A stretch of 13,140 nt of DNA from Betaproteobacteria bacterium. GTDB lineage: Bacteria; Pseudomonadota; Gammaproteobacteria; Burkholderiales; Burkholderiaceae. Positions 83 to 12,857 of the stretch are shown one piece after another (position 1 is the first letter of the stretch; each line of letters begins with the position of its first letter). The notes under the pieces were generated by a model. That model saw nothing but the letters and a program-made list of their open reading frames with translations. It did no database searches and was not told where the DNA came from. The DNA is taken from NCBI GenBank assembly GCA_009921765.1, contig RFXC01000119.1, positions 1 through 13,140 of the forward strand. The letters are read 5' to 3'. A program made the translations under genes and the position numbers.

Positions 83-102
83 ACGCTTCTGGCGCTCAGA
101 CC
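76..102. terminator. Hairpin containing both stop codons of two convergent genes
   Basis: The arms GGTCTGA (76-82) and TCAGACC (96-102) are perfectly complementary. After one A/C mismatch the stem continues with CGC (84-86) and GCG (92-94), closing on a 5-nt loop, so ten pairs form around one mismatch. The plus-strand TGA (80-82) and the minus-strand fcl TGA (96-98 read in reverse) lie in opposite arms. Neither side has a T-tract, so intrinsic termination would be weak. It may act as a bidirectional terminator or a 3'-end stabilising structure. Confidence 0.45.
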
Positions 103-1091
103 GAGCGGGGGGTGCTCGCGAGAAAATCGCGATAGGCAAGCTTCAGCCCATCATCAAGCGATATCTGCGGCTGCCAGCCCAGGCTATTGAGCCGGCGGCT
201 GTCCATCAACTTTCGCGGCGCGCCATCGGGCTTGCTGGCATCGAACACGATGTCACCGACATACCCCACCGCACGCGCCACCGCACGAGCAAGTTCGGCA
301 ATGCTCACGTCGTCTCCCCAGCCCACATTGATATGACTGAGCATGGGCTGGGTGTGCTGCGAGTAGACCTCGTGCGACAGATTCATCACATGGACGCTCG
401 CCTCGGCCATGTCGTCCACAAAAAGAAATTCGCGACGCGGCGTGCCGCTTCCCCAGACCGCCACCTGCGGCAACCCGGCCGCCCGTGCTTCGTGGAAACG
501 GCGGATGAGCGCCGGAATGACATGCGAATTTTCGGGGTGATAGTTGTCGCCCGGGCCGTACAGGTTGGTGGGCATGACGCTGCGGTAGTCAACGCCGTGC
601 GAGGCACCGTACTGACGGTTATAGCTTTCGCAGAGCTTGATGCCCGCGATCTTGGCGATGGCGTAGGGCTCGTTGGTCGGTTCAAGCAAACCGGTGAGGA
701 GCGCCTCTTCGCTCATGGGCTGCGGCGCATTTCGCGGATAGATGCAGCTTGACCCCAGGAAGAGCAGCTGTCGCACGCCGCTTCGGAATGCCGCATCGAT
801 CACGTTGGCCTCAACCATCAGGTTGTCGTAGATGAAGTCGGCCGGATAGGTGTTGTTGGCGTGAATGCCGCCCACGCGCGCCGCTGCCAGATAGACCTGG
901 TCTGGCTTTTCAGCAGCAAAGAACTCGCGCACCGCGCGCTGGTCAATGAGATCGAGTTCGGCATGCGTTCGGCTGAGGAGCTCGAACGGCACGCGGTCTG
1001 CGCGCCGGTTGAGGGCGCGGACAATCGCAGCACCGACCATTCCCCGATGACCGGCGACGAAGATTCTTGCTGGACGAGAGGCTGACGGCAT
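96..1091 (-). CDS. fcl: GDP-L-fucose synthase (GDP-4-keto-6-deoxy-D-mannose epimerase/reductase)
   Basis: This cytoplasmic NADPH-dependent enzyme of the extended SDR family epimerises and reduces GDP-4-keto-6-deoxymannose to GDP-L-fucose, a donor for surface polysaccharides. The 331-residue product has the N-terminal nucleotide-binding motif GHRGMVG (14-20), the segment LGSSCIYP (112-119) with the catalytic Ser and Cys, the YxxxK pair at Tyr143/Lys147, and the conserved [14 protein letters not shown] segment with its catalytic His. It also has [15 protein letters not shown]. Length matches the family (about 320). The ATG at 1091 is chosen because the conserved fold begins 9 residues later; the frame stays open upstream to 1214, but that part has no family character. 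No good ribosome binding site is visible. The usual partner gmd (GDP-mannose 4,6-dehydratase) is not in the window. The gene converges with the fragment at 2-82 and diverges from the ATPase gene. Confidence 0.93.
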
Positions 1092-1101
1092 GACGGGTAG
1101 A

Positions 1102-1117
1102 AGGTTGGCCACAACCT
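1102..1117. promoter_or_regulatory. Inverted repeat in the fcl leader (possible operator)
   Basis: AGGTTG-GCCA-CAACCT is a perfect 6-4-6 dyad 11 bp upstream of the fcl start codon, in the divergent gap between fcl and the ATPase gene. It could be a regulator site or a hairpin in the fcl 5' untranslated RNA that limits translation initiation. A weak minus-strand -10-like TACACT lies just beyond it (1122-1127). The role is inferred from position and symmetry only. Confidence 0.25.
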
Positions 1118-1188
1118 CGCTAGTGTACTGGGTTGACGGTACGCAAGGCGTATGCGGCGTGGCCCCGCCTGCGCGGGCGGTCTTCCGC

Positions 1189-1193
1189 GAAAG
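1189..1193 (+). promoter_or_regulatory. Ribosome binding site supporting the ATPase start at 1200
   Basis: GAAAG lies 6 nt before the ATG at 1200. The next in-frame ATG (1278) has no purine-rich sequence before it, so this site favours the upstream start. Confidence 0.4.
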
Positions 1194-1199
1194 TGGCGA

Positions 1200-3986
1200 A
1201 TGGCCGATGCGCATTCAGGCACCCCCACCGGCAGCCCCAGCTCCCTGACGCAGTTCGCAGCCTGCTCATGGCATGCGATGACACCGGAGGCGACGCTCGC
1301 GCAGCTGAGAGCTCACCCGATCACCGGGTTGTCAGAGGCCGAGGCCGAGCGTCGAGCGCTCGTTCACGGCATGAATGCGCTGCCCGAGGCGCCGCGCCGC
1401 TCGGTCGTCGCCCTGTTCCTGTCCCAGTGCACCAGCCCACTGGTCTTTCTGCTTCTGGGCGCTTCGCTCCTGTCGCTTGCCTTGCGCCATATCGAGGACG
1501 CAGCCGTGATCCTGGTGGTGGTCATCATCAATGCAGCGATGGGGACCTATCAGGAGCAACGTGCCAACCGCTCGATGACAGCGCTTCGCCAGCTGTCGAC
1601 CATCCGCGTGAAGGTGCAACGCGGCGGCCGCGGCGAGATCATCGATGCCCAGAAACTGGTGCCGGGCGATTTGATCGAAGTGGGGGCGGGTGATGCCATT
1701 GCGGCCGATGCCAGGGTGATCGTGGCGGTGGGCCTGCAGGTGTCGGAAGCATCGCTTACCGGCGAGTCGGTGCCGGTCGCCAAATCCGTCGCTGCGGTAT
1801 CCGAGGCCACGCTGCTCGCCGACCGACATTGCATGCTGTATGCCGGCACGCTTGCCACGGCCGGTCATGCATGGGCAGTCGTGGTGGCAACCGGCCCCCA
1901 CACCGAGGTCGGCGCAATTGCGCGCTTGTCGGAACAAGCGCAAGAGCCCCCGACGCCGCTAGAGCGACGACTCGCCGCTCTGGGCCGCGCCCTGCTGGGC
2001 GTGGCGGCCGCGCTCTTTGCAACGCTGGTTCTACTGGGCCTGTGGCGACGGATCCCCACTGGGGAATTGCTGATGATTGCCATCAGCCAGATGGTGTCGG
2101 TGGTTCCCGAGGGCCTGCCGATCGCGCTTACCATCGCGCTTGCTGCCGGCATGCAGCGCATGGCAGCCCGCGGCGCGCTCATCCGGCGCCTGAGCGCGGT
2201 AGAGGCGCTGGGCGCCACCACCGTGATCTGCACCGACAAGACCGGCACCCTGACACGCAACGATATGACGGCGGCCGGGTTCTGGATTCCCGGCCTGGGC
2301 CTGCACAGCGTCGAGGCAAGACCCCCGCAGCCGAGCCAACCCGTGGAAGGGGGTACACCTCCCTTTGCTGCCGATGAGCCCGGCTTGAGGCGCCTGCTAC
2401 GCGCCGCCGTGCTGTGCAACGATGCGCGCGATTCCACCGAAACCACGTTGATCGATCTCGCGGTGCAGCTTGGCGAATCACCGGAGGACAGGCGTCGCGA
2501 GGCGCCACGCGTAAGCGAGCAGCCCTTCGAGGCAGAGCACCGGATGATGGCCAGTTGTCACCGCCTGGCCGATGGGCGAATGCTCACCCTCGCCAAGGGC
2601 GCGCCGGAGACGATTTTTCGCCTCTGCAAGCAGGATGACGCCGGCATCGCAGCGGCCGAGGCGGCGGCGGAACAGATGGCCTCCCGCGGCTGGCGCGTGC
2701 TGGCGTTTGCGGATCGCACAGATGCCGGCGCAACACCTGCGCCAGCGGCGCCTGCTTCACAGCCCGCCGACCACTCCGCGTCACTCGCGCAGACACCGCT
2801 CACGCTGCCCTCGGATGCCTATCAGCCCATCACCGGCAGCCAAATCAACGCGGTCGGACTCACGCTGCTCGGCCTGATCGGCGAGCGCGACCCGCCCCGA
2901 GACGGGGTGGCAGAGGCGATCGCGCAATGCCATGCGGCAGGCATCCGGACGATGATGGTGACCGGAGACCACAAGCTCACCGGGCTTGCAATCGCCCGCG
3001 AACTCGCGATCGCCGAGGCGGCCACCGACACCCCCGGCGCAGCAGTGGACGGGCTGGAACTCGAGCGCATGGATGAGGCGGAACTCCGCGAACGTATCGC
3101 CTCGGTTGCCGTATTTGCCCGCGTGCAACCCGCACAGAAATTGCGGATCGTGGAGGCACTGCAGGCCGAGGGGCATGTCGTTGCCATGACGGGCGACGGC
3201 GTGAACGATGCGCCAGCACTCGCGCGCGCCGATATCGGGATCGCAATGGGCGCGAGCGGCACGGATGTCGCACGCGCAGCCGCTGGCATGGTGATCACCG
3301 ATGACAACTTCGCCACCATTACACACGCCATCGAGGCAGGCCGAGCCATCAACGCGAGTGTGCGCAAGGTGCTCCTCTACCTGCTCGCGACCTCAATCGA
3401 CGAGGTGCTGCTGCTGATGCTCGCGCTCATCGCCGGACTTCCGCTGCCGCTTGCCGCAGTGCAGATTCTCTGGATCAACCTGGTCACGGAAGGCACGCTC
3501 ACGCTCAACCTGGTGATGGATCCCGCCGACCCTGATGCCATGCGCAAACCCCCGGCCCCGGCCGACGCGCCGCTCCTCGACCGCGCGATGTTGATGCGGG
3601 CGGGCCTGATGGGTCTCACGTCCGCCGCAGCGGCATTCGGCTGGTTCGCCTGGGGACTGAACCAAGGCACCGACCCGGCGGTTCTGCAGACCGAGGTTTT
3701 TACGCTGGTGGCGATCAGTCAGTGGTTCAACATGCTCAACTGCCGCAGCGCCACGGCGAGTGCGTTCTCGCCAACGCTGCTCTCCAACCGATGGCTTGTA
3801 GCGGGTCTTGCGCTTTCTGTCGCGCTCCAGTTGTCCGTGCTCTACGTACCCGGCATCGCCGCAATCTTTCATACGGTGCCGCTGCCTGCGTCATCCCTTG
3901 GGCCCATCGCCCTCACGGGGAGCGCGGTCCTTTGGGTTGAAGAGCTTCGAAAGGTCGCTGTGCGCAGCCGGCGACCGTTCCATTGA
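1200..3986 (+). CDS. P-type cation-transporting ATPase (P2, Ca2+-ATPase-like)
   Basis: This inner-membrane pump is predicted to use an aspartyl-phosphate cycle to move a cation, Ca2+ by family resemblance. The 928-residue product has, in order, a cation-ATPase N-terminal domain, an actuator domain with TGES (187-190), PEGLP in TM4 (303-307), DKTGT with the phosphorylated Asp346, KGAPE in the nucleotide domain (near 466), TGDHKLT (588) and TGDGVND (664-670), then a C-terminal set of membrane helices. The TM6 motif reads NLVTEG where SERCA has NLVTDG. TM5 reads ATSIDE where SERCA has SSNVGE, so one Asn ligand becomes Ser. An Ala/Pro-rich insertion lies at about residues 505-551. The 1200 start is chosen because [11 protein letters not shown] keeps the Trp-His found at the start of many family members; ATG 1278 would cut it off. 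Its tie to the neighbouring genes is unknown. Confidence 0.88.
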
Positions 3987-4042: not shown

Positions 4043-4645
4043 ATGAGCAACGCCCCCGCCGCCAACGCGCCCGTGTTCAACGAACGCGGTTTGCTCGACC
4101 CGCTCACCCCGCCTGAGGCCGACATCCAGCGTTCACTCATGCAACCCTCGGGGCAGAGCTTTTCCGACTGGATGGAGAGCCGTGTCGCCCGTCGCTCCAC
4201 GCGCAGCTACGACTGGGACGCCCTCAAATTCCAGGCCGACTACGACCCCCGCTATCGCCGCGCCCAGATGCGCTATGTCGGCACAGGCGGCACCGGCGTC
4301 TCGCGCGACAGCAATGCCGTGCCCTCGGCACATTTCACCTTCAGCACCATGGTGATCCCGGCTGGCAACATCGGTCCCTCCCACATCCACTATGACGTCG
4401 AAGAGATCTTCTTCGTGCTCCGCGGCGCCATGAAGGTGGTCTGCGAAAAAGACGGGCAACGCTGGGAAGCAGTGCTGGGTGAGCGCGATCTCATCTCGGT
4501 GCCCCCGGGCGTATACCGCGAAGAGCAGAACATCGGCGATGAAGATGCGCTGATGTGCGTGATGCTGGGCTCTCCCAAGCCCATCACACCGGTCTACCCC
4601 CCTGATTCGCCGCTCACCAAGATCAAGCGCGACCTGGGACGATGA
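4043..4645 (+). CDS. Cupin-domain protein with altered second metal motif
   Basis: The 200-residue protein has an N-terminal arm of about 95 residues (including SFSDWMESRVARRSTRSYDW) followed by one cupin barrel. Motif 1 is clear: HIH at 114-116, Glu121 and Gly128, with the spacing HxH-x4-E-x6-G. Motif 2, normally PxG-x2-H-x3-N, reads PPG (154-156), VY, Arg159, EEQ, Asn163, so the last metal-binding His is replaced by Arg. Bicupin and monocupin ring-cleavage dioxygenases normally keep this residue, so the protein may bind metal with three ligands or act as an isomerase, binding or sensor protein. It is the first gene of a run to 9449 and its stop overlaps the next start (ATGA), indicating translational coupling to the ThDP enzyme. 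The start has only a weak ribosome binding site (GAGAC). Confidence 0.8.
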   Translation: MSNAPAANAPVFNERGLLDPLTPPEADIQRSLMQPSGQSFSDWMESRVARRSTRSYDWDALKFQADYDPRYRRAQMRYVGTGGTGVSRDSNAVPSAHFTFSTMVIPAGNIGPSHIHYDVEEIFFVLRGAMKVVCEKDGQRWEAVLGERDLISVPPGVYREEQNIGDEDALMCVMLGSPKPITPVYPPDSPLTKIKRDLGR

Positions 4646-6324
4646 GCACCGCGCCCGCCCCTGCAGCGCCGTCGCCCACCATCACGGTGGGGGAGCTGGT
4701 GGCGCGTTTTCTCGAGGCCTGCGGCGTGCGTGCCGCGTTCGGCGTGATTTCGATTCACAACATGCCGATTCTCGACGCGCTTCATCGTCGTCAGCAGATT
4801 CGCTTCGTCTCTGCCCGCGGCGAGGCTGGCGCATGCAACATGGCCGATGCCTGCGCGCGCGTCACTGGCGTGTTGGGTGTCTGCGTCACCAGCACCGGAA
4901 CCGGCAGCGGCAACGCGGCTGGCGCCATGGTCGAGGCCTACACCGCCGGCACACCGCTCCTCCATCTCACCGGTCAGATCGAATCCGAGTACCTGGATCG
5001 AGATCTGGGATTCATCCACGAACATCCGGCGCAGCTGGCCATGCTGCAGTCGGTGGGCAAAGCGGCCTTTCGGATCCGGAACCCCGAGACCGCGCTCGCC
5101 ACGCTGCGCGAGGCGGCCAGGCTCGCCTTCACGCCGCCCTGCGGACCGGTGAGCATCGAGATTCCGATCGACATTCAGGCGCGCACCCTGCCGTTGCCTG
5201 ACGACCTCGGCCCCTTGACGCCGAGCGCGATCGCGCCCGCACGCGGCGAAGTCGCCGCGCTGGCCGATCAGCTGTCAGGCGCTCGCCGGCCCATGCTCTG
5301 GCTGGGTGGCGGCGCCCGCGGGGCCCGCTCGGCGGTCGAGCGATTCATCAAGATGGGCTGGGGCGTGGTGAGCTCGGTTCAGGGCCGAGGCATCGTGCCG
5401 GAATCGCATCCCGCCACGCTGGGCTCCTTCAACCTGCTCAAGCCCGCCGAGGCGCTCTACCAGACCTGCGATGCCATGCTGGTGGTGGGCTCGCGGCTAC
5501 GCAGTAACGAAACGCTTCGCTACCGGCTCAAGCTGCCCGACGCGCTCTACCGGATTGACGCCAACGCGCTCGCCCATAACCGCGGGTACGTGAGCCGCTA
5601 TTTCGTTCACGGCGATGCGCAGCTCACACTCGATGCTCTCGCCGATGCCCTTGAGGGCAAAATGCAGATCGACCCCGCCCTGCAAGCCGACGTGGGTCAC
5701 GCGCGCAAGGCGTGCGAAACAGAGGTCAACGCCACGCTCGGCCCGTATCTGGCACTCAAGGAAGCATTGGCCGAGTGCGCCGGGCCAGCACTCTGGTGGG
5801 TGCGCGACATCACGCTGTCAAACAGCATGTGGGGCAATCGCGCGCCAGCACTCGACCATCCCCGCGCCGGCGTCCATGCGCTCGGGGGTGGCATCGGTCA
5901 GGGCCTCTCGATGGCAATCGGCACGGCCATCGGCGACCGGCTCTACGGGCTGGGTCGACGCACCGTGGCGCTGGTTGGTGATGGCGGCTTCATGCTGAAC
6001 GTGGGCGAACTCGCGTGTGCGGTGCAGGAGCGCGCCGATCTGGTCGTACTGCTCATGAACGATCAGCGCTACGGCGTGATCCGCAACATTCAGGATGACC
6101 TGTATGGCGGCCGGCACTGCTATGTCGATCTGCACACACCACGCTTCGAGCAATTCTGCGCAAGTTTGGGAGCGGGCTATCACCGCCTGGACAACCCGGC
6201 CCGCGCGGGCGAGGTGTTGCGCCTCGCGCTGGCCGAACGCGGCCCGGTGATCGTCGAGATCGACATGCAGGCCTGGGGGCCGTTTGCCGCCAGGTTTGCC
6301 GGACCCATGCTGAAAAAAGATTGA
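4642..6324 (+). CDS. Thiamine-diphosphate-dependent enzyme, acetolactate synthase/benzoylformate decarboxylase superfamily
   Basis: The 560-residue protein has the three-domain layout of the ThDP superfamily. The N-terminal pyrimidine-binding domain carries the cofactor-activating Glu61 in ARGEAGACNMADA, followed by TSTGTGSGNAAGAMVEAY. A central domain contains MLWLGGGARG. The C-terminal pyrophosphate-binding domain has GDGG (446-449) leading to Asn473 in LLMNDQRYG, the Mg2+/ThDP motif with the usual spacing of about 26 residues. Such enzymes decarboxylate 2-oxo acids or make or break C-C bonds next to a carbonyl. No regulatory small subunit lies beside it and the context is catabolic, so biosynthetic acetolactate synthase is unlikely. 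The IHEHPAQLAML segment stands where acetolactate synthases have their FQE-type loop, suggesting a different substrate. The start overlaps the cupin stop, so the two are probably made in a fixed ratio. Confidence 0.85.
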   Translation: MSTAPAPAAPSPTITVGELVARFLEACGVRAAFGVISIHNMPILDALHRRQQIRFVSARGEAGACNMADACARVTGVLGVCVTSTGTGSGNAAGAMVEAYTAGTPLLHLTGQIESEYLDRDLGFIHEHPAQLAMLQSVGKAAFRIRNPETALATLREAARLAFTPPCGPVSIEIPIDIQARTLPLPDDLGPLTPSAIAPARGEVAALADQLSGARRPMLWLGGGARGARSAVERFIKMGWGVVSSVQGRGIVPESHPATLGSFNLLKPAEALYQTCDAMLVVGSRLRSNETLRYRLKLPDALYRIDANALAHNRGYVSRYFVHGDAQLTLDALADALEGKMQIDPALQADVGHARKACETEVNATLGPYLALKEALAECAGPALWWVRDITLSNSMWGNRAPALDHPRAGVHALGGGIGQGLSMAIGTAIGDRLYGLGRRTVALVGDGGFMLNVGELACAVQERADLVVLLMNDQRYGVIRNIQDDLYGGRHCYVDLHTPRFEQFCASLGAGYHRLDNPARAGEVLRLALAERGPVIVEIDMQAWGPFAARFAGPMLKKD

Positions 6325-6330
6325 TCCGTT

Positions 6331-6393
6331 ATGAGCGCCCAGAAAAGCTTCTACTGGGGACTGAACGAATCGCCCCTGCCCTGGGCTCGCTGA
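6331..6393 (+). CDS. Possible 20-residue small protein between the ThDP enzyme and SDR genes
   Basis: An ATG 6 nt after the ThDP enzyme stop opens a frame of 20 codons ending in TGA: MSAQKSFYWGLNESPLPWAR. The composition is unlike noise from high-GC DNA: it is aromatic-rich (FYW, W) with a Pro-Trp end. The upstream purine run AAAAGA (6315-6320) is 10 nt away and a poor ribosome binding site, but translational re-initiation after the upstream stop is possible. It ends 27 nt before the next gene. I do not recognise it. It could be a leader peptide, a small interacting protein, a peptide substrate, the remnant of a lost gene, or chance. Confidence 0.35.
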   Translation: MSAQKSFYWGLNESPLPWAR

Positions 6394-6408
6394 GCCCCCG
6401 GTCCACTC

Positions 6409-6413
6409 AGGAG
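6409..6413 (+). promoter_or_regulatory. Ribosome binding site of the first SDR gene
   Basis: AGGAG is 7 nt before ATG 6421, a strong match that fixes this start. Confidence 0.6.
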
Positions 6414-6420
6414 TCTTTCC

Positions 6421-7200
6421 ATGGATCTCGGAATCGCTGGCCGCAAGGCCCTGGTGTGCGGCGCAAGCGCCGGACTGGGTTTTGCCTGCGCCCAGGCACT
6501 GGTTGAAGAAGGTGTTCAGGTGGTGGTGGTCGCCCGCACGGCGCAGACCCTTGCCGATGCGGCCGCGCGACTCGCTGCACTTGGGGGCGGCTCAGTCGCA
6601 CAGGTGGTCGCAGACGTCACCACCGACCACGGACGCGCGGCCATTCTCGACGCTCACCCCCGCTTCGACATCGTGATCACCAACGCGGGCGGACCGCCGC
6701 CAGGCAGTTTTCGTGACTGGACGCGCGACACCTGGCTGGCCGCCCTTGATGCCAACATGCTGGCGCCCATCGAACTCATCCGCGCGACGGTCGACCCGAT
6801 GATTGCTCAAGGCTTCGGACGCATCATCAACATCACCTCCAGCGCGGTGAAATCGCCACTCGAACCACTGGGGCTGTCGAACGGCGCACGCAGCGGTCTC
6901 ACCGGGTTTGTGGCCGGACTCGCGCGCAGCGTGGCCGCCCACGGTGTCACCATCAACAATCTGCTCCCCGGCACCTTCGATACCGCGCGGCTTGCGAGCA
7001 ATTTCGCAGCCCAGGCCCGGCGCGAAGGACGGCCGGTCGATGCCGTGCGCAACGACCGAATCGCCCGACACCCGGCCCGCCGGCTGGGATCGCCCGATGA
7101 GTTCGGCCGTACCTGCGCATTTCTCTGCAGCCTGCATGCGGGCTACATCAACGGCCAGAACCTGCTGCTTGACGGCGGCTCGTATCCCGGCACCTTCTGA
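6421..7200 (+). CDS. Atypical short-chain dehydrogenase/reductase (FabG-like, lacks YxxxK)
   Basis: The 259-residue protein has a classical SDR Rossmann fold: the cofactor loop GASAGLG at 14-20, NAGG at 88-91, INITSS with Ser140/Ser141, and the C-terminal GQNLLLDGGSYPG. The catalytic YxxxK is absent. The aligned segment reads GLSNGARSGLTGF (151-163), with Leu/Ser where Tyr is expected and Arg157 near the Lys position. From memory, a FabG-like SDR subgroup carries an LSNxxR segment here, so this looks like a subgroup feature rather than a broken gene. The reaction is unknown; it may be a non-redox or unusually catalysed step on the intermediate made by its neighbours. It shares the operon with the ThDP enzyme and the monooxygenase, which starts 26 bp after its stop. 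The N-terminus (MDLGIAG) resembles that of the second SDR (MDLKLAG). Confidence 0.82.
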   Translation: MDLGIAGRKALVCGASAGLGFACAQALVEEGVQVVVVARTAQTLADAAARLAALGGGSVAQVVADVTTDHGRAAILDAHPRFDIVITNAGGPPPGSFRDWTRDTWLAALDANMLAPIELIRATVDPMIAQGFGRIINITSSAVKSPLEPLGLSNGARSGLTGFVAGLARSVAAHGVTINNLLPGTFDTARLASNFAAQARREGRPVDAVRNDRIARHPARRLGSPDEFGRTCAFLCSLHAGYINGQNLLLDGGSYPGTF

Positions 7201-7226
7201 CGGTCACCGCCTCATCCCCATCGATC

Positions 7227-8384
7227 ATGAATGCACTCGACATCGGCATTGCCGGAGGCGGCATCGGCGGCCTCGCCGCCGCCATCGCGCTTCAGCGCAG
7301 CGGCTACCGCGTGACCGTCTATGAGCAGGCACCGCATTGGATGCGCGTTGGCGCCGACGTGAACCTCACCCCCAATGTGGTCCGGGCGCTCGACGGCTTC
7401 AAGCGCCCCCTCAGTGAACGGATCCGCCGAGAGGGGGCGCAACCCACCTTCCGGATCAGCCGCGACTGGGACACCAGCCTGGAAACATCTCGGCTGGGCA
7501 TGGGCAACGTGGCCCAGGAACAGTACGGCGCGCCCCAGGTCACCATCCACCGGGCCGACCTGCTGGCCGCGCTCGCAGCCGAGGTGCCCGCCGACACGGT
7601 GCGCTTTGGCAAACGCATCCGTTCGCTGGCCCAGAACGGAAACGGCGTCACGCTGGAATTTGAAGATGGCGACAGCGCCCGCCACGATCTGGTGGTCGGC
7701 GCAGACGGCATTCACTCGCGCGTGCGCGCAGCGCTATTCGGTGAAGAGTCGCCCCGCTTTACGGGCGTGGTCTCCTACCGCTCGGTGGTGCCCACCGAGC
7801 GCGTACGCGATGTACCCGAGATCGAAGCCTTCACCAAATGGTGGGGGCCCTCCCCCGATGTACAGATCGTCACCTTCCCGCTCAGCCAGGGGCGTGAAAC
7901 CTTTGTCTTTGCAACCACCGGCCAACCCAGCTGGACCGAGGAGTCCTGGACCACCGCAGGCGATGTAAACGAACTGCGTGAGGTCTACCGCGAGTTTCAC
8001 CCCGATGCCCGGAAGCTTCTGGAGGCCTGCGACAGCGTCATGAAAAGTGCGCTCTATGAGCGCGAGCCGCTCGCGCGCTGGAGCGTAGGGCGCGTCACGC
8101 TGCTGGGTGATGCCTGCCACCCGATGCTTCCCTTCATGGCACAGGGGGCGGGCATGGCGATTGAAGACGCTGTCGTGCTGGGCCGGGCGCTCGCGCCGCT
8201 CGCAACGCTCGCCGGCAACGCACCGGGCGCAAACATCGAAGCGGCGCTGACCCGATATGAAAACGCCCGTCGCGAGCGCACAGCGCGAATCCAGATCGGC
8301 TCTCGTGGCAACCAATGGATGCGCGGCCCCGGAAACGCCGACTGGGTTTACGGTTACGACGCCTGGCACACAGACCTTGAATAA
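7227..8384 (+). CDS. FAD-dependent monooxygenase (group A aromatic hydroxylase, salicylate hydroxylase-like)
   Basis: The 385-residue cytoplasmic enzyme has the three fingerprints of single-component flavin hydroxylases. These are the N-terminal dinucleotide-binding GGGIGG (10-15) with the acidic Glu33 ending strand 2, the DG motif DLVVGADGIHSR (154-165), and the GD motif GRVTLLGDACHPMLP (288-302) followed by AQGAGMAIEDA. HRADL near 108-112 carries the FAD-contacting Arg. Relatives such as salicylate 1-hydroxylase and 6-hydroxynicotinate 3-monooxygenase use NAD(P)H and O2 to hydroxylate an aromatic acid ortho or ipso, often with decarboxylation. That would produce a diol-type substrate for the extradiol dioxygenase encoded at 9531-10508. 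The exact substrate cannot be read. It is the fourth sure gene of the operon; no clear ribosome binding site precedes ATG 7227, so coupling to the preceding SDR is possible. Confidence 0.88.
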   Translation: MNALDIGIAGGGIGGLAAAIALQRSGYRVTVYEQAPHWMRVGADVNLTPNVVRALDGFKRPLSERIRREGAQPTFRISRDWDTSLETSRLGMGNVAQEQYGAPQVTIHRADLLAALAAEVPADTVRFGKRIRSLAQNGNGVTLEFEDGDSARHDLVVGADGIHSRVRAALFGEESPRFTGVVSYRSVVPTERVRDVPEIEAFTKWWGPSPDVQIVTFPLSQGRETFVFATTGQPSWTEESWTTAGDVNELREVYREFHPDARKLLEACDSVMKSALYEREPLARWSVGRVTLLGDACHPMLPFMAQGAGMAIEDAVVLGRALAPLATLAGNAPGANIEAALTRYENARRERTARIQIGSRGNQWMRGPGNADWVYGYDAWHTDLE

Positions 8385-8420
8385 CAATCCGATCGACGCC
8401 CCACCCACGCAGGAGACAGC

Positions 8421-9449
8421 ATGACCCGTTTCACGCCCTTCACGGCGCAGCACCGACCGTTCACCACGATGGCGCTCGCCGCCTCGGTGCTGGGACTCGG
8501 CCTGACAGCCGCATCGCCGGCTGACGCACAACAAACCACGCCGGCCGCATTCCCTTCCCGCAACCTCACCCTGGTGGTGCCTTTCCCACCTGGCGGAGGT
8601 CCCGATCTCGCCGCACGCGCAGTGGGGGAAAAGCTCACCGCCCGCCTGGGCAAGCCGGTTGTGGTCGAGAACAAGCCGGGTGCGGGCGCGCTGATCGGCG
8701 CAGGATTCGTAGCCAAGTCTGCAGCCGATGGCCACACCCTGCTGTTCACGCCCAACACCGTGGTCATCTCGCCCCATGTTCTGCCCGCTGGCGCAGGCGG
8801 TGGCGTCAATGTTGCCCGCGATCTGGTGCCCGTCATTGCACCCGCTGCCACCCCACTCGTGCTGGTGGCGCACCCCTCACTGAACGCCACCCGCCTTCAG
8901 GACGCTCTGGATGCCGCACGCAAGTCGCCAGGCCTGCCCTATGGCAGCGCAGGTAACGGCTCGCCCATGCACTTCGCTGGCGAAATGATGAAACGCGCGG
9001 CCAAGGTCGATCTGCTGCACGTTCCCTACAAGGGCGTGGCGCCCTCGATCAACGCCGCGCTAGGCGGCGAGGTCAAGCTGCTCTTCGTAGGCCTGGGCGG
9101 CGCGGTGCCGCACATCAAGGCGGGCAAGCTCGTGCCGCTTGCGGTCACCGAGGCCAGGCGCTCCGACCTGCTGCCCGATGTACCCACCGCCACCGAGCAG
9201 GGTGTACCCGGGGTGGAGGTCAACGCCTGGTACGGCGTCTTCGCCCCCCTTGCCACCCCGCAGGCCATCATCGATCAACTGAATGCCGAGATCAATGCGG
9301 TGATCGCCATGCCCGATGTCCGAACCCGGCTCTCCACTGCTGGGATCGAACCCCTGGGCGGGTCAGCGGCCGTGCTCGCGGGCTTCGTCAAAGCCGACAA
9401 CGAGCGCTACGGCACGCTCGCGCGCGAATTGAAGATCAGCGCCGACTGA
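8421..9449 (+). CDS. Bug/TctC-family periplasmic solute-binding protein
   Basis: The 342-residue precursor starts with a signal peptide: basic residues, a hydrophobic stretch at about 17-31, and likely cleavage after ASPADA at residue 36. The mature part shows family marks: NLTLVVPFPPGGGPDLAARAV at its start, VVENKPGAGALIGAGFVAKS, and LLHVPYKGVAPSINA. These receptors bind small carboxylates or aromatic acids in the periplasm. Some work with a TctA/TctB membrane pair, but most Bug genes in Burkholderiales stand alone, as here. An AGGAG at 8411-8415, 5 nt before the ATG, fixes the start. As the last gene of the run from 4043, it probably captures the substrate, or a signal molecule, of this pathway. 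A hairpin follows at 9504. Confidence 0.92.
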   Translation: MTRFTPFTAQHRPFTTMALAASVLGLGLTAASPADAQQTTPAAFPSRNLTLVVPFPPGGGPDLAARAVGEKLTARLGKPVVVENKPGAGALIGAGFVAKSAADGHTLLFTPNTVVISPHVLPAGAGGGVNVARDLVPVIAPAATPLVLVAHPSLNATRLQDALDAARKSPGLPYGSAGNGSPMHFAGEMMKRAAKVDLLHVPYKGVAPSINAALGGEVKLLFVGLGGAVPHIKAGKLVPLAVTEARRSDLLPDVPTATEQGVPGVEVNAWYGVFAPLATPQAIIDQLNAEINAVIAMPDVRTRLSTAGIEPLGGSAAVLAGFVKADNERYGTLARELKISAD

Positions 9450-9503
9450 CACTGAACGGCGCGGGCGCAGGCCCAGTCACGCCGCGCGGCACCCGAGCCC
9501 CAA

Positions 9504-9526
9504 CCGCCCCGCTCCCTGCGGGGCGG
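9504..9526. terminator. Bidirectional hairpin between convergent genes
   Basis: CCGCCCCGC (9504-9512), loop TCCCT, and GCGGGGCGG (9518-9526) form a perfect 9-bp GC-only stem. It lies between the end of the Bug gene (9449) and the stop of the minus-strand dioxygenase gene (9531). There is no T-tract on either side. The placement suggests transcription termination or RNA 3'-end protection for both genes. Confidence 0.55.
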
Positions 9527-9530
9527 GCCA

Positions 9531-10508
9531 TCAGGTAGACGGTCTCTGACCGGCCCGCTCGGTCGCAAACTTGGCGGTGGGCGCATCGGCGTCTTTCTGG
9601 CGGCGCGTGGTGCCATCAATGCCACCGGAAATGGCCCACTCCGCAAAGGCCGTGGGCCCCGGGGTGAATTCGCGCGGCGCCCAGGCATCGGTCAACTCGT
9701 CTTCGTCGGTGTTGTATTCGACCAGGCCGCCGCCGGGGCTACGGAAATACCAGAAGATCGCCGAGGAGATCGGATGACGTCCCGGGCCAAGTTCGGTCTC
9801 CCAGCCACAGCGCGACATGTGCATTCCGCCCCCGAAGACCTCATGCACATCGCGTACGGTGAACGCCACATGGTTGAGACCTGCGCGACCGTGCGGCAGC
9901 TGGAGCAGAAACAGGTCGTGATGGCCGGCGCGCGGCGCGCAGCGAAGAAATGATCCCCGGCCCGGATAACTGTCAGAGAGCACGAACCCGAATCGCTCGA
10001 TATAAAACGAGGTGACCGCCGCCAGATCGGCCACGAAGAACACAACATGGCCCACTTCGATCGGCGCAGCGCGTTCATAGGCAGGGCTCGCCTGATCCAC
10101 ACGGCTGCGCTCGTTCCAGGTGTTGGTGCGCGCGCACACCACCTCCACCGGACGCTTGCGCGTGACCTGGACCCGAACCGCCAACCCGCTGGGATCGGTA
10201 CAGCCCACCCGATCGCCGGTATCCATAAAACCCGGGGCGCCCTGCAGCCGCTCACGAAAGCGCTGGAGCACGGCTGCGCTCTCCACGGCCCAGACCACTT
10301 CGCGCACGGTGGGGTCGGGTTCGATCCCCGCAGGGAGTCCGGGGGTGTCGGAGGCCACCACGATCACGCGGCAGCCGTTGAGCGTCTCGAACACCAGACG
10401 ACCGGTGTCGTCACCCACCAGCGTGAGGCCCCAGTCGGAAAAAAACTGTCGGCAGCGCACCAGATCGGTGGCGCCGTAAGTGACCTCGTCGATTCCCTGA
10501 AGATTCAT
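9531..10508 (-). CDS. Type I extradiol ring-cleavage dioxygenase-like protein (two VOC domains)
   Basis: The 325-residue protein has two vicinal-oxygen-chelate domains. The N-terminal one has no metal ligands, as in BphC-type enzymes. The C-terminal one has His154 (VGH), His213 (LNH) and Glu264 (LVEY) as the Fe(II)/Mn(II) triad, plus the second-shell residues His196/197, His245 (GRH) and Tyr254 (WYF). Spacings agree with 2,3-dihydroxybiphenyl dioxygenase: 9 residues from His245 to Tyr254 and 10 more to Glu264. The extradiol signature nearly matches, with Trp before the Tyr and Ser where D/E/N/T/A is listed. The predicted reaction is meta cleavage of a catechol-like ring with O2. ATG 10508 is chosen because TGGAA lies 6 nt upstream; TTG 10523 and ATG 10520 are also in frame. 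A C-terminal tail of about 45 residues after the domain is polar. The gene faces away from the second SDR and towards the operon. Confidence 0.85.
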   Translation of the reverse strand: MNLQGIDEVTYGATDLVRCRQFFSDWGLTLVGDDTGRLVFETLNGCRVIVVASDTPGLPAGIEPDPTVREVVWAVESAAVLQRFRERLQGAPGFMDTGDRVGCTDPSGLAVRVQVTRKRPVEVVCARTNTWNERSRVDQASPAYERAAPIEVGHVVFFVADLAAVTSFYIERFGFVLSDSYPGRGSFLRCAPRAGHHDLFLLQLPHGRAGLNHVAFTVRDVHEVFGGGMHMSRCGWETELGPGRHPISSAIFWYFRSPGGGLVEYNTDEDELTDAWAPREFTPGPTAFAEWAISGGIDGTTRRQKDADAPTAKFATERAGQRPST

Positions 10509-10839
10509 CGGTGGTTCCATCAAACATGGGTTGAGTCAAGGCGGGCACTGAAGCACGCCCGGCCGAACGCCGTTCCGATCGAAAGGATAGCGAAATCCGC
10601 GTGCGGCGCACGCCACGCCTCAATCGATTCGGAAACACTCCCCACCCATCTTCTTGAACGGGCCCAACCGGGAATTCGCAACGTTGAGGCAAGCATCAGA
10701 CAGGGGGAAGCGTCCTGTAGCGCAGCCATGCTACCCCGCCCGCCAGCCGGATCCGCGAAACCGCGGGGCCCGACCAGCGGAACTTCAGGGCATCATCGCG
10801 CACCAGGCTGTACTCGCCCTTCTCCATTCAAGGACTCCC
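10509..10839. promoter_or_regulatory. Divergent intergenic region between the dioxygenase and second SDR genes
   Basis: These 331 bp hold no convincing gene. A frame is open from 10654 into the SDR gene, but its residues have no SDR character. A -10-like TATCCT on the minus strand (10584-10589) is the best promoter candidate for the dioxygenase gene. The dyad at 10599-10613 sits just upstream of it. For the SDR gene I see AAGGA at 10830-10834, 5 nt before the ATG, but no clear promoter. A shared regulator site is plausible here because no regulator gene is in the window. Confidence 0.35.
10599..10613. promoter_or_regulatory. Perfect dyad, possible operator
   Basis: GCGTGC-GGC-GCACGC is a perfect 6-3-6 inverted repeat in the divergent intergenic region, next to the minus-strand -10-like box. 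GC-rich dyads arise by chance in such DNA, so the role as an operator is only suggested. Confidence 0.25.
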
Positions 10840-11604
10840 ATGGATCTCAAACTCGCTGGCAAAACCGTGATGATCACCGGCGGCTCCAAAGGCATCGGCG
10901 CCTCGTGCGCGTGGTCGTTTGCGGCAGAAGGTTGCGGGCTGAAGCTCGTGGCCCGCAATGGAGACACCCTGCAGGCGCTCGCGCGGCAGATCGAGGCGGC
11001 GCACCGGGTCAAGGTGGACACCCATGCGCTCGACCTCCGCGCCCCGGCCGACCTGGCGCGCGCCGCCACCCTCTGTAGCGACCTGGATATTCTGGTGAAC
11101 AATGCGGGCGACATTCCAGCGGGCTCACTCGACCGCCTCGATGACCCCGCCTGGCGGCATGCCTGGGAACTGAAGGTGTTTTCCTATATCTCACTCTCGC
11201 GCGCAGCGTTTGTGGCCATGCGCGACCGCGGCCAGGGGGTGATCACCAACGTGATCGGGATGGCGGCCGAACGGCCAACCTTCGAATACATCTGCGGGGC
11301 CAGCGCCAATGCCGGGCTCGCAGCCTTCACCAAGGCGCTCGGACAGGGCTCGCTCAAGCATGGCGTCCGGGTGATGGGCGTACACCCGCCTTCCACCCGC
11401 ACCGAGCGGATCGACACCATCCAGCGCGGGCTTGCCAAACAGCACTATGGCGATGAATCACGCGTTGACGACCTGTTCCGGGACAAACTCGCCACCCCGG
11501 CGATCGATCCCGAGCAGGTGGCCGACGCGGTGGTCTATCTGTCGTCCCCCCGGGCGAGCCAGCTGACCGGCATTGTGATGAATCTGGGCATGGTGAACGG
11601 ATGA
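10840..11604 (+). CDS. Atypical short-chain dehydrogenase/reductase (lacks catalytic Ser and Lys)
   Basis: The 254-residue protein has the cofactor loop TGGSKGIG (13-20), NNAG (87-90) and a C-terminal LTGIVMNLG. The catalytic centre is changed. Where Ser is expected the sequence reads NVIGMAAE, with Gly140. The YxxxK region reads EYICGASANAGL (149-160): counted back from the conserved Leu160, Gly153 takes the Tyr place and Asn157 the Lys place, while a Tyr sits three residues earlier at 150. From memory, similar YIxGSAxNAxL segments occur in a group of FabG-like proteins, so this is probably a subgroup trait. The reaction is unknown. ATG 10840 follows AAGGA by 5 nt and begins exactly at the family N-terminus (MDLKLAGKTV). 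The gene is divergent from the dioxygenase and is followed 86 bp later by ugd. It probably belongs to the catabolic module but could be regulated separately. Confidence 0.82.
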   Translation: MDLKLAGKTVMITGGSKGIGASCAWSFAAEGCGLKLVARNGDTLQALARQIEAAHRVKVDTHALDLRAPADLARAATLCSDLDILVNNAGDIPAGSLDRLDDPAWRHAWELKVFSYISLSRAAFVAMRDRGQGVITNVIGMAAERPTFEYICGASANAGLAAFTKALGQGSLKHGVRVMGVHPPSTRTERIDTIQRGLAKQHYGDESRVDDLFRDKLATPAIDPEQVADAVVYLSSPRASQLTGIVMNLGMVNG

Positions 11605-11690: not shown

Positions 11691-12857
11691 ATGAAAATCG
11701 CTGTCGCCGGCCTGGGCTATGTGGGCCTCTCCAATGCAGTGCTGCTTTCGCAGCGCCACGAGGTGGTTGCGGTCGATCTGGTTGCCGCCAAGGTCGACCA
11801 GGTGAACGCCCGACGCTCACCGATTGAAGATGCCGACGTCACCGCGTTTTTGGAAACCAAACCGCTTACGCTGCGGGCAACTGTCAATGGGGCCGAAGCA
11901 TGGCGCGACGCCGACTTTGTCGTCATTGCCACCCCCACCGACTACGACCCAGTCACCAATTACTTCAATACCGCCTCGGTGGACGCGGTCATCCGCGATG
12001 TGAAGGCCGTCAATCCGCGGGCGCTGATGGTGATCAAGTCCACCATCCCAGTGGGTTTCACGCTGGCTGCGCGCGAGCGTCACGGTACGCAGAACATCGT
12101 CTTCAGCCCAGAGTTTCTGCGTGAGGGCAAGGCGTTGCACGACAACCTGTACCCCAGCCGTATCGTGGTGGGCGAACAATCGGAGCGCGCCCGCGCGTTC
12201 GCGGCGCTCCTTCAAGAGGCCTCCCTGAGGCCCGATGTGCCGGTGCTCTTTACAGGCAGCACCGAGGCCGAAGCAATCAAACTGTTCGCCAACACCTATC
12301 TGGCCATGCGGGTCGCCTATTTCAACGAGCTCGACAGCTATGCGGCCTCTCACGGCCTGGACACGCGCGAAATCATCGAAGGCGTGTGCCTGGACCCACG
12401 AATCGGCAGCTTCTACAACAACCCCAGCTTTGGCTACGGCGGCTACTGCCTGCCCAAGGACACCAAGCAACTGCTCGCCAATTTCGCCAACGTACCGCAA
12501 ACCCTCATCGAAGCCATCGTCACCGCCAACACCACCCGTAAAGATTTTGTCTCTTTCGATATCCTCAAACGCAATCCGAAAATTGTGGGCATTTACCGGC
12601 TGGTGATGAAAGCAGGGTCGGACAACTTTCGCGCGAGCAGCGTTCAAGGCATCATGAAGCGGCTGAAGGCCAAGGGTGTCGAGGTGATTGTCTACGAGCC
12701 AGTGCTGAAAGAACCCCGCTTCTTCAACTCCGAGGTCACCCACGACCTCGCAAGTTTCAAGCAGCGGGTAGACCTGATCGTGGCGAACCGTCTTACGCCC
12801 GAGATCGCCGACGTCGCCGACAGGGTTTATACGCGGGATCTCTTCGCGTCAGACTGA
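11691..12857 (+). CDS. ugd: UDP-glucose 6-dehydrogenase
   Basis: This cytoplasmic enzyme oxidises UDP-glucose twice with NAD+ to give UDP-glucuronate, the precursor for acidic exopolysaccharides, capsules and lipid A sugar modification. The 388-residue product starts with the Rossmann motif [11 protein letters not shown] (GxGxxG at 7-12) and has [19 protein letters not shown] (139-148), [17 protein letters not shown] with the catalytic-site Lys197/Asn201, and [14 protein letters not shown] with the nucleophile Cys253 and Asp257. Length equals the short bacterial Ugd type, and all catalytic residues are present. The start is set by the N-terminal motif; no strong ribosome binding site is seen. 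Like fcl at the other end of the window, it belongs to sugar-nucleotide metabolism, so the catabolic genes between them look like an insertion into, or a neighbour of, a polysaccharide locus. Confidence 0.95.

Follow-up and report, generated by a model that had tools for sequence, protein, structure and literature searches.

A patchily conserved ring-cleavage gene module of Burkholderiales and other proteobacteria with a possible role in kynurenate catabolism

Enzyme studies of around 1960 established how bacteria break down kynurenate, a close relative of xanthurenate. In Pseudomonas the 7,8-dihydrodiol is formed first and then 7,8-dihydroxykynurenate, whose extradiol cleavage yields a dihydroxypicolinate bearing a carboxy-oxopropenyl chain. 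The chain is reduced and decarboxylated to an aldehyde, which is oxidised to give a carboxyethyl chain, and the ring is then broken down; these are the steps listed in KEGG and in the biochemistry of the 1960s (EC 1.14.99.2, 1.3.1.18, 1.13.11.10). The present analysis concerns a gene module in a 13,140-nucleotide stretch of a Betaproteobacteria bacterium of the Burkholderiaceae (assembly GCA_009921765.1, contig RFXC01000119.1), the whole of which is called the window below. Six genes of the window, encoding a cupin, a thiamine diphosphate (ThDP)-dependent enzyme, an atypical short-chain dehydrogenase/reductase (SDR1), a class A FAD monooxygenase (FMO), a Bug/TctC periplasmic binding protein and a type I extradiol dioxygenase (VOC), belong to a conserved, patchy catabolic module. 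We hold with high confidence that this module encodes one ring-cleavage pathway with a ThDP-dependent decarboxylation, and lean slightly towards kynurenate and close analogues (4-hydroxyquinoline-2-carboxylates such as xanthurenate) as the compounds it degrades.

Searching named genomes with the ThDP protein yielded 55 loci, whose titles place nearly all of them in Comamonadaceae or other Burkholderiales. They were compared by clusters of open reading frames (ORFs) and then by tblastn; 53 of them hold the ThDP gene at the tblastn thresholds. The counts that follow refer to the 25 loci with at least 6.9 kb upstream and at least 9 kb downstream of the ThDP gene, among which part of the absences arise where a locus ends too early. 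The first-pass annotation of the window had grouped seven genes and had set co-occurrence in other genomes as the test of that grouping; all 25 loci have both the cupin and SDR1 next to or near the ThDP gene, more than chance would give, and the grouping was not refuted by this test. An alpha/beta hydrolase, an IclR regulator (IclR), an aspartate dehydrogenase (AspDH), an aldehyde dehydrogenase (ALDH) and an SDR with a YxxxK motif (YxxxK SDR) are each present in 23, a Rieske oxygenase and an ATP-binding cassette (ABC) transporter each in 17, the FMO in 15, VOC in 14 and a Rieske reductase in 13. Sulfatase and RidA genes were found in seven each, and all seven sulfatase loci also carry the FMO. 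Only L001 and L021, both from the window's genus, are without hydrolase, IclR, AspDH and YxxxK SDR. The recurrent operon, which most relatives have in one piece, begins with the ABC transporter, YxxxK SDR, cupin, alpha/beta hydrolase, IclR, ThDP, AspDH and ALDH genes, and continues variously with Bug, RidA, SDR1, FMO, a further Bug and sulfatase, together with the Rieske oxygenase and reductase and VOC.

The ThDP enzyme and SDR1, which had been regarded as oddities for a meta-cleavage set, are core members of the module. The seventh gene of the original grouping, SDR2 (10840-11604), was rejected as a member because in G001, the nearest genome compared with the window, other genes precede it and its position is some 5.5 kb further downstream; among the printed non-overlapping hits it is matched in L020 (30% identity) and L060 (26%) only. 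The earlier remark that there is no ring-fission hydrolase holds for the window but not for the module, which has one in 23 of 25 relatives; three genomes of the window's genus carry it at a second locus. The conservation gives good support to the first suggestion, that an aromatic acid is hydroxylated, opened by an extradiol enzyme and further processed as a 2-oxo acid. The FMO was considered as a plain substitute for the Rieske enzyme, an idea dropped because 11 of the 15 FMO loci carry both; the remaining four include L001 and L021, and in the window's genus the Rieske gene is at a second locus in G003 and G005.

Enzyme classes for ring dioxygenation, dihydrodiol dehydrogenation, extradiol cleavage, NADH reduction, decarboxylation, aldehyde oxidation and hydrolysis are all present in the module, as in the Pseudomonas kynurenate (quinoline) pathway, from which it differs in its proposed end at iminosuccinate and aspartate and in an extra FMO branch. 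Given this fit, the statement that the set matches no known pathway is doubtful. With classical meta-cleavage (catechol, biphenyl, homoprotocatechuate) the module shares a type I extradiol dioxygenase, a BphD-like hydrolase and an ALDH, whereas the ThDP enzyme, AspDH, cupin and atypical SDR are additions. There is no ORF in the window for the 2-oxopent-4-enoate hydratase/aldolase of the lower meta-pathway and none is named inside the annotated clusters that were read. A dihydrodipicolinate-synthase-family gene stands inside the cluster of G596; outside the annotated modules are a fumarylacetoacetate-hydrolase-family gene, in a neighbouring group, and fbaA. The classical meta-cleavage pathway was rejected. 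Lumichrome degradation is likewise an N-heteroaromatic route with ThDP decarboxylation, a Rieske oxygenase and extradiol cleavage, but there the ThDP enzyme consists of two subunits and its step precedes those of the Rieske and extradiol enzymes (PMC12746152); the term 'aspartate dehydrogenase' does not occur in the text of that paper. Riboflavin/lumichrome catabolism was rejected because the gene set differs.

The roles ascribed below to individual residues of the module enzymes are in general those we assume. VOC (9531-10520, reverse strand; TTG at 10523, probable ATG at 10520) is a two-domain protein that matches type I extradiol dioxygenases by sequence and by predicted fold (predicted local distance difference test, pLDDT, 81). 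Its H159, H218 and E269, numbered from the TTG and taken to be iron ligands, are at least 95% conserved in 35 sequences and invariant in 14, and it is proposed to be the ring-cleaving enzyme, an extradiol dioxygenase whose iron site appears intact. The ThDP-dependent enzyme (4642-6324, forward strand; 560 aa; NCBIfam PRK07064, 809 bits) has E61, G446-D447-G448 and N473, which are presumably catalytic and at least 95% conserved in 78 sequences, and is a putative 2-oxo acid decarboxylase. AspDH scores 341 bits against a cut-off of 226 for the NCBIfam aspartate dehydrogenase family, and the three solved sequences that it matched are aspartate dehydrogenases or TM1643. As in the NadX L-aspartate dehydrogenases (PDB 2dc1, 1j5p), it keeps the histidine aligned with that of 2dc1 (H219, at least 95% conserved in 47 sequences), which we take to be the active-site histidine; unlike them, it is encoded in a ring-cleavage operon and would serve in iminosuccinate reduction, not in NAD synthesis. 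The hydrolase resembles BphD and PcaD, its best solved relatives are BphD enzymes, and its presumed catalytic residues S110, D230 and H257 are conserved in 50 sequences. ALDH resembles HpaE and betaine-aldehyde dehydrogenase. The Rieske protein has a VanA-type C-terminal domain, and among its solved relatives are dicamba O-demethylase and, as a weaker match, 2-oxoquinoline 8-monooxygenase. A small protein with a recombinase-like HTH_62 domain repeatedly adjoins the Rieske gene (L009:16057-16305, L086:6770-7078 and others).

SDR1 (6421-7200, forward strand) is without the YxxxK motif, having Ser for Tyr and Arg for Lys, and these residues (S153, R157) are conserved in 39 SDR1 sequences. A different SDR (SDRx) stands beside the ThDP gene in other clades and is also without YxxxK, with mostly Thr for Tyr and Arg for Lys, while the other SDR of the module retains YxASK. 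Among 67 loci with at least 5.5 kb on each side of the ThDP match, in which L021 and L111 are one contig and others may repeat, SDR1 alone was found in 32 and SDRx alone in 29, while six have neither and no locus has both, a split that follows clades. SDR1 and SDRx probably fill one slot, and SDR1 is a candidate for the reductase of a side-chain double bond.

The nearest solved relative of the FMO (7227-8384, forward strand) is 6-hydroxynicotinate 3-monooxygenase (NicC, PDB 5eow), followed by tropone 2-monooxygenase. The histidines of the NicC motifs GAGIHI and AHRAL, to which we assign catalytic roles by assumption, are Asn and Tyr in the window FMO, and NicC function was rejected for this reason; the protein may instead be an ortho-hydroxylase of a phenolic analogue such as xanthurenate. 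In the cupin (Cupin_2; 4043-4645, forward strand; 200 aa) H114, H116, E120 and E121 are conserved and likely form a metal motif, and we propose that the protein works together with the hydrolase in the last steps. The Bug/TctC protein (8421-9449, forward strand) would take up the aromatic acid. A trio of cupin, alpha/beta hydrolase and aspartate dehydrogenase genes was also found on a Paraburkholderia phenoliruptrix plasmid (L116:10698-12807), where it adjoins proline racemase-family and FAD oxidoreductase genes; this hints at a joint action of the three proteins in other settings as well.

In the window's lineage the module is split and partly eroded. AspDH (62-63% identity to L030) and the hydrolase (54-56%) are at a separate locus in G001, G003 and G005, all of the same genus. 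In G001 this second locus lies on a short, 4.3-kb contig and comprises YxxxK SDR, hydrolase, IclR, AspDH and Bug. That of G005 comprises YxxxK SDR, hydrolase, AspDH and Bug together with ABC, HTH_62 and Rieske genes, IclR not being resolved by ORF picking, and that of G003, over two contigs, has all the genes of both and a Rieske reductase. The YxxxK SDR is thus present in all three genomes, whereas a Rieske gene was seen in two of them, G003 and G005. The window accordingly carries one half of the module, and the other half probably lies elsewhere in its genome, as it does in these three relatives. Erosion is seen between the ThDP gene and SDR1, where in the window and L001 only 21 codons including the stop are left of ALDH (6331-6393, forward strand), a member that the first-pass annotation had missed. 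Comparison with the whole gene of the same-genus loci L021 and L002 shows the first two ALDH codons fused in frame with the final 18 and the stop, leaving a 20-residue remnant; besides it, no ALDH above 39% identity was found in G001. The window is also without about 5.5 kb between 10610 and 10655 that G001 (L163) has, and this deletion (junction 10611-10654) brought SDR2 and ugd closer to the module.

From the observed gene set, its conservation and its split, and from the families and conserved residues of its proteins, we infer the substrate, the order of steps and each reaction. The aromatic acid would be taken up by Bug, ABC or major facilitator superfamily (MFS) proteins and 7,8-dihydroxylated by the Rieske oxygenase, encoded at the second locus, and the YxxxK SDR; as an alternative entry, the FMO would hydroxylate an analogue that is already hydroxylated. 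Extradiol cleavage by VOC would give a pyridine ring with a 2-oxobutenoate side chain, the C=C bond of which would be reduced by the atypical SDR before the ThDP enzyme decarboxylates the 2-oxo acid. The resulting aldehyde would be oxidised by ALDH, or by some other ALDH in the window's lineage, in which the gene is deleted. Judged by family, the module has suitable genes for the reductase, 2-oxo acid decarboxylase and ALDH steps, that for the last being the one deleted in the window. The alpha/beta hydrolase and cupin would carry out ring opening and C-C hydrolysis, freeing the ring nitrogen as iminosuccinate, which AspDH would convert to L-aspartate; by carbon count, glutarate would be the co-product of the C-C hydrolysis. 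Release of iminosuccinate by hydrolytic opening and C-C cleavage is proposed because the remaining ring has its nitrogen next to C-COOH, and it would make sense of the aspartate dehydrogenase, the whole of this end being deduced from structure.

The FMO and sulfatase may feed in xanthurenate, which is already 8-hydroxylated, or its sulfate. A fuller version, which we offer only tentatively and regard as rather doubtful, combines these proposals: the module would be the gene set of kynurenate catabolism, departing from the 1961 scheme, with an FMO entry from (de-sulfated) xanthurenate to the same 7,8-dihydroxy intermediate, and with an exit through glutarate and iminosuccinate in which a dedicated AspDH forms aspartate, so that the cell keeps the ring nitrogen in an amino acid. 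Pseudomonads turn kynurenate into glutamate, alanine and organic acids, as stated, with reference to work of 1961, in PMC11354673.

Kynurenate arises from tryptophan, and in animals it has protective and signalling functions (PMC11354673). Delftia acidovorans uses the quinoline route of tryptophan breakdown. In G596 the complete module, FMO included, lies 2 bp from a convergent tryptophan 2,3-dioxygenase gene (L145:8039-8899). In a sample of 200 genomes from the family to which G431 (Curvibacter lanceolatus) belongs, 23 have a ThDP match (E<=1e-150), and in this family sample tryptophan 2,3-dioxygenase is present in 21/23 carriers vs 113/177 non-carriers (one-sided Fisher p 0.005). The ThDP match occurs in 15 of 399 genomes of the order Burkholderiales (E<=1e-100), where the dioxygenase is found in 9/15 carriers vs 72/384 others (p 0.0007), or in 8/11 vs 73/388 when matches of at least 57% identity are taken (p 0.0002); the family and order samples share genomes. 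In the window's genus, G001 and G003 hold both the module and tryptophan dioxygenase, G005 the module only, and G002 (78% complete) and G004 neither. A weak kynureninase-like match (26% identity), which may be another pyridoxal phosphate enzyme, was seen in the flank of a Rhodoferax module (L020:405-1370).

Several observations weigh against kynurenate as the substrate, or against parts of the route. Tryptophan dioxygenase stands beside no other cluster among 155 loci, 100 of them with a ThDP match, and six 41-kb regions; these six regions, from Burkholderia, Caballeronia and Cupriavidus, gave no match to tryptophan dioxygenase or kynureninase queries. The control gene homogentisate dioxygenase is also enriched in the family sample (14/23 vs 68/177, p 0.034), so part of the tryptophan dioxygenase effect is general, with genome size and phylogeny as confounding factors. 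In a third set of 20 carriers, made up of G001, G003, G005 and 17 genomes picked from the loci of the ThDP scan, tryptophan dioxygenase is over the cut-off in only 12, which is no excess over the 134/200 of the family overall. Of the 15 ThDP matches of the order sample, three (G042, G192, G275) have no surrounding module. Both the window and G001 have lost ALDH, the predicted cupin structure is of low quality (pLDDT 69) and its fold search gave generic cupins only, with no functional lead, and the end products of the 1961 scheme reportedly differ from an iminosuccinate exit. The dihydrodipicolinate-synthase-family gene of the G596 cluster (L145:4562-5551) lies between the FMO and the HTH_62 gene.

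It is also conceivable, with a smaller but appreciable probability, that the same chemistry acts on a different N-containing bicyclic or pyridine-fused aromatic acid, such as another quinoline-2-carboxylate, and ends at iminosuccinate. The core enzymes and AspDH suit any substrate that leaves an N-C(COOH)-CH-C=O fragment, and VOC is divergent (26-34% identity) in the clusters of Vibrio, Paracoccus, Pseudosulfitobacter and Nitratireductor, which suggests that the substrate varies from clade to clade. Such an acid alone would leave the tryptophan 2,3-dioxygenase gene beside the G596 module unaccounted for, though this is a single case. An N-free aromatic acid degraded by an unusual extradiol route, with the aspartate dehydrogenase there for a side purpose, is unlikely. 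Its hydrolase would have fitting relatives in BphD and PcaD, and for uptake there are genes of the kinds that serve organic acids in general, sulfonate/taurine or MFS transport, but an N-free substrate needs neither AspDH, in the locus in 23 of 25 cases, nor RidA, a family that handles imines, which is present in seven.

In the tropone pathway, FMO hydroxylation is followed by ring cleavage by a ThDP enzyme, and tropone 2-monooxygenase being the second solved relative of the FMO would agree with a similar order here. This is very improbable, since the FMO is in only 15 of the 25 ThDP loci, Rieske and extradiol genes accompany the set and a ThDP ring opening leaves VOC without a role; tropone-type ring cleavage was accordingly rejected. 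That the genes are chance neighbours without a common pathway, as their spread over two loci in the window's genus might suggest, is contradicted by their co-occurrence in the 25 loci and across alpha-, beta- and gammaproteobacteria and has next to no probability.

The module was annotated on records of Caballeronia sp. NK8, Klebsiella pneumoniae, Acinetobacter baumannii, Novosphingobium resinovorum, Paracoccus sp. MA, Pseudosulfitobacter, Nitratireductor, Caballeronia sp. SBC2 and Caballeronia sp. M1242, the last cut by the record end, and was found by tblastn on four Burkholderia records and Cupriavidus sp. EM10. Environmental carriers include Curvibacter lanceolatus ATCC 14669 and C. gracilis ATCC BAA-807 (loci L013 and L047). 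A Klebsiella-type ThDP query matched one of 370 genomes of the class at E<=1e-120, and this genome is the window's nearest relative. The Vibrio nigripulchritudo cluster has neither Rieske gene nor YxxxK SDR within 10 kb, and its FMO frame is broken into two pieces (L090:15190-16322). The records named Klebsiella pneumoniae and Acinetobacter baumannii are L087 and L088; the Klebsiella record is labelled a plasmid and may be a chromosomal piece, because tkt, epd, pgk and fbaA adjoin its module. In Novosphingobium, genes for a TonB-dependent receptor and a family 3 glycoside hydrolase lie directly upstream of the ThDP gene (L089:5711-9936), possibly for freeing a glucoside of the substrate.

The ORF list placed the seven genes of the first-pass annotation where it had put them, and Pfam and NCBIfam scans confirmed their families. 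Its view that fcl (96-1214, reverse strand) flanks the set was mistaken, as a 2.8-kb cation P-type ATPase gene (1152-3986) lies in between; at the other end, a ugd-like nucleotide-sugar dehydrogenase gene (11691-12857) follows SDR2. Composition and promoter scans of the window gave nothing informative. Upstream of fcl in the nearest genome there is a second SDR1 homologue (about 50% identity; L001:1085-1864), which adjoins an ORF read as an AMP-dependent ligase.

In the open literature, judged by titles and abstract starts with partial coverage and with subscription journals mostly outside it, no genes were found assigned to kynurenate breakdown and no description of this module. If the kynurenate assignment is true, it would supply the genes for a pathway known from enzyme work of around 1960, and orphan enzymes would gain sequences. 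The pathway would then be traceable in genomes and metagenomes, including those of freshwater Comamonadaceae, soil Caballeronia and some Klebsiella and Acinetobacter records.

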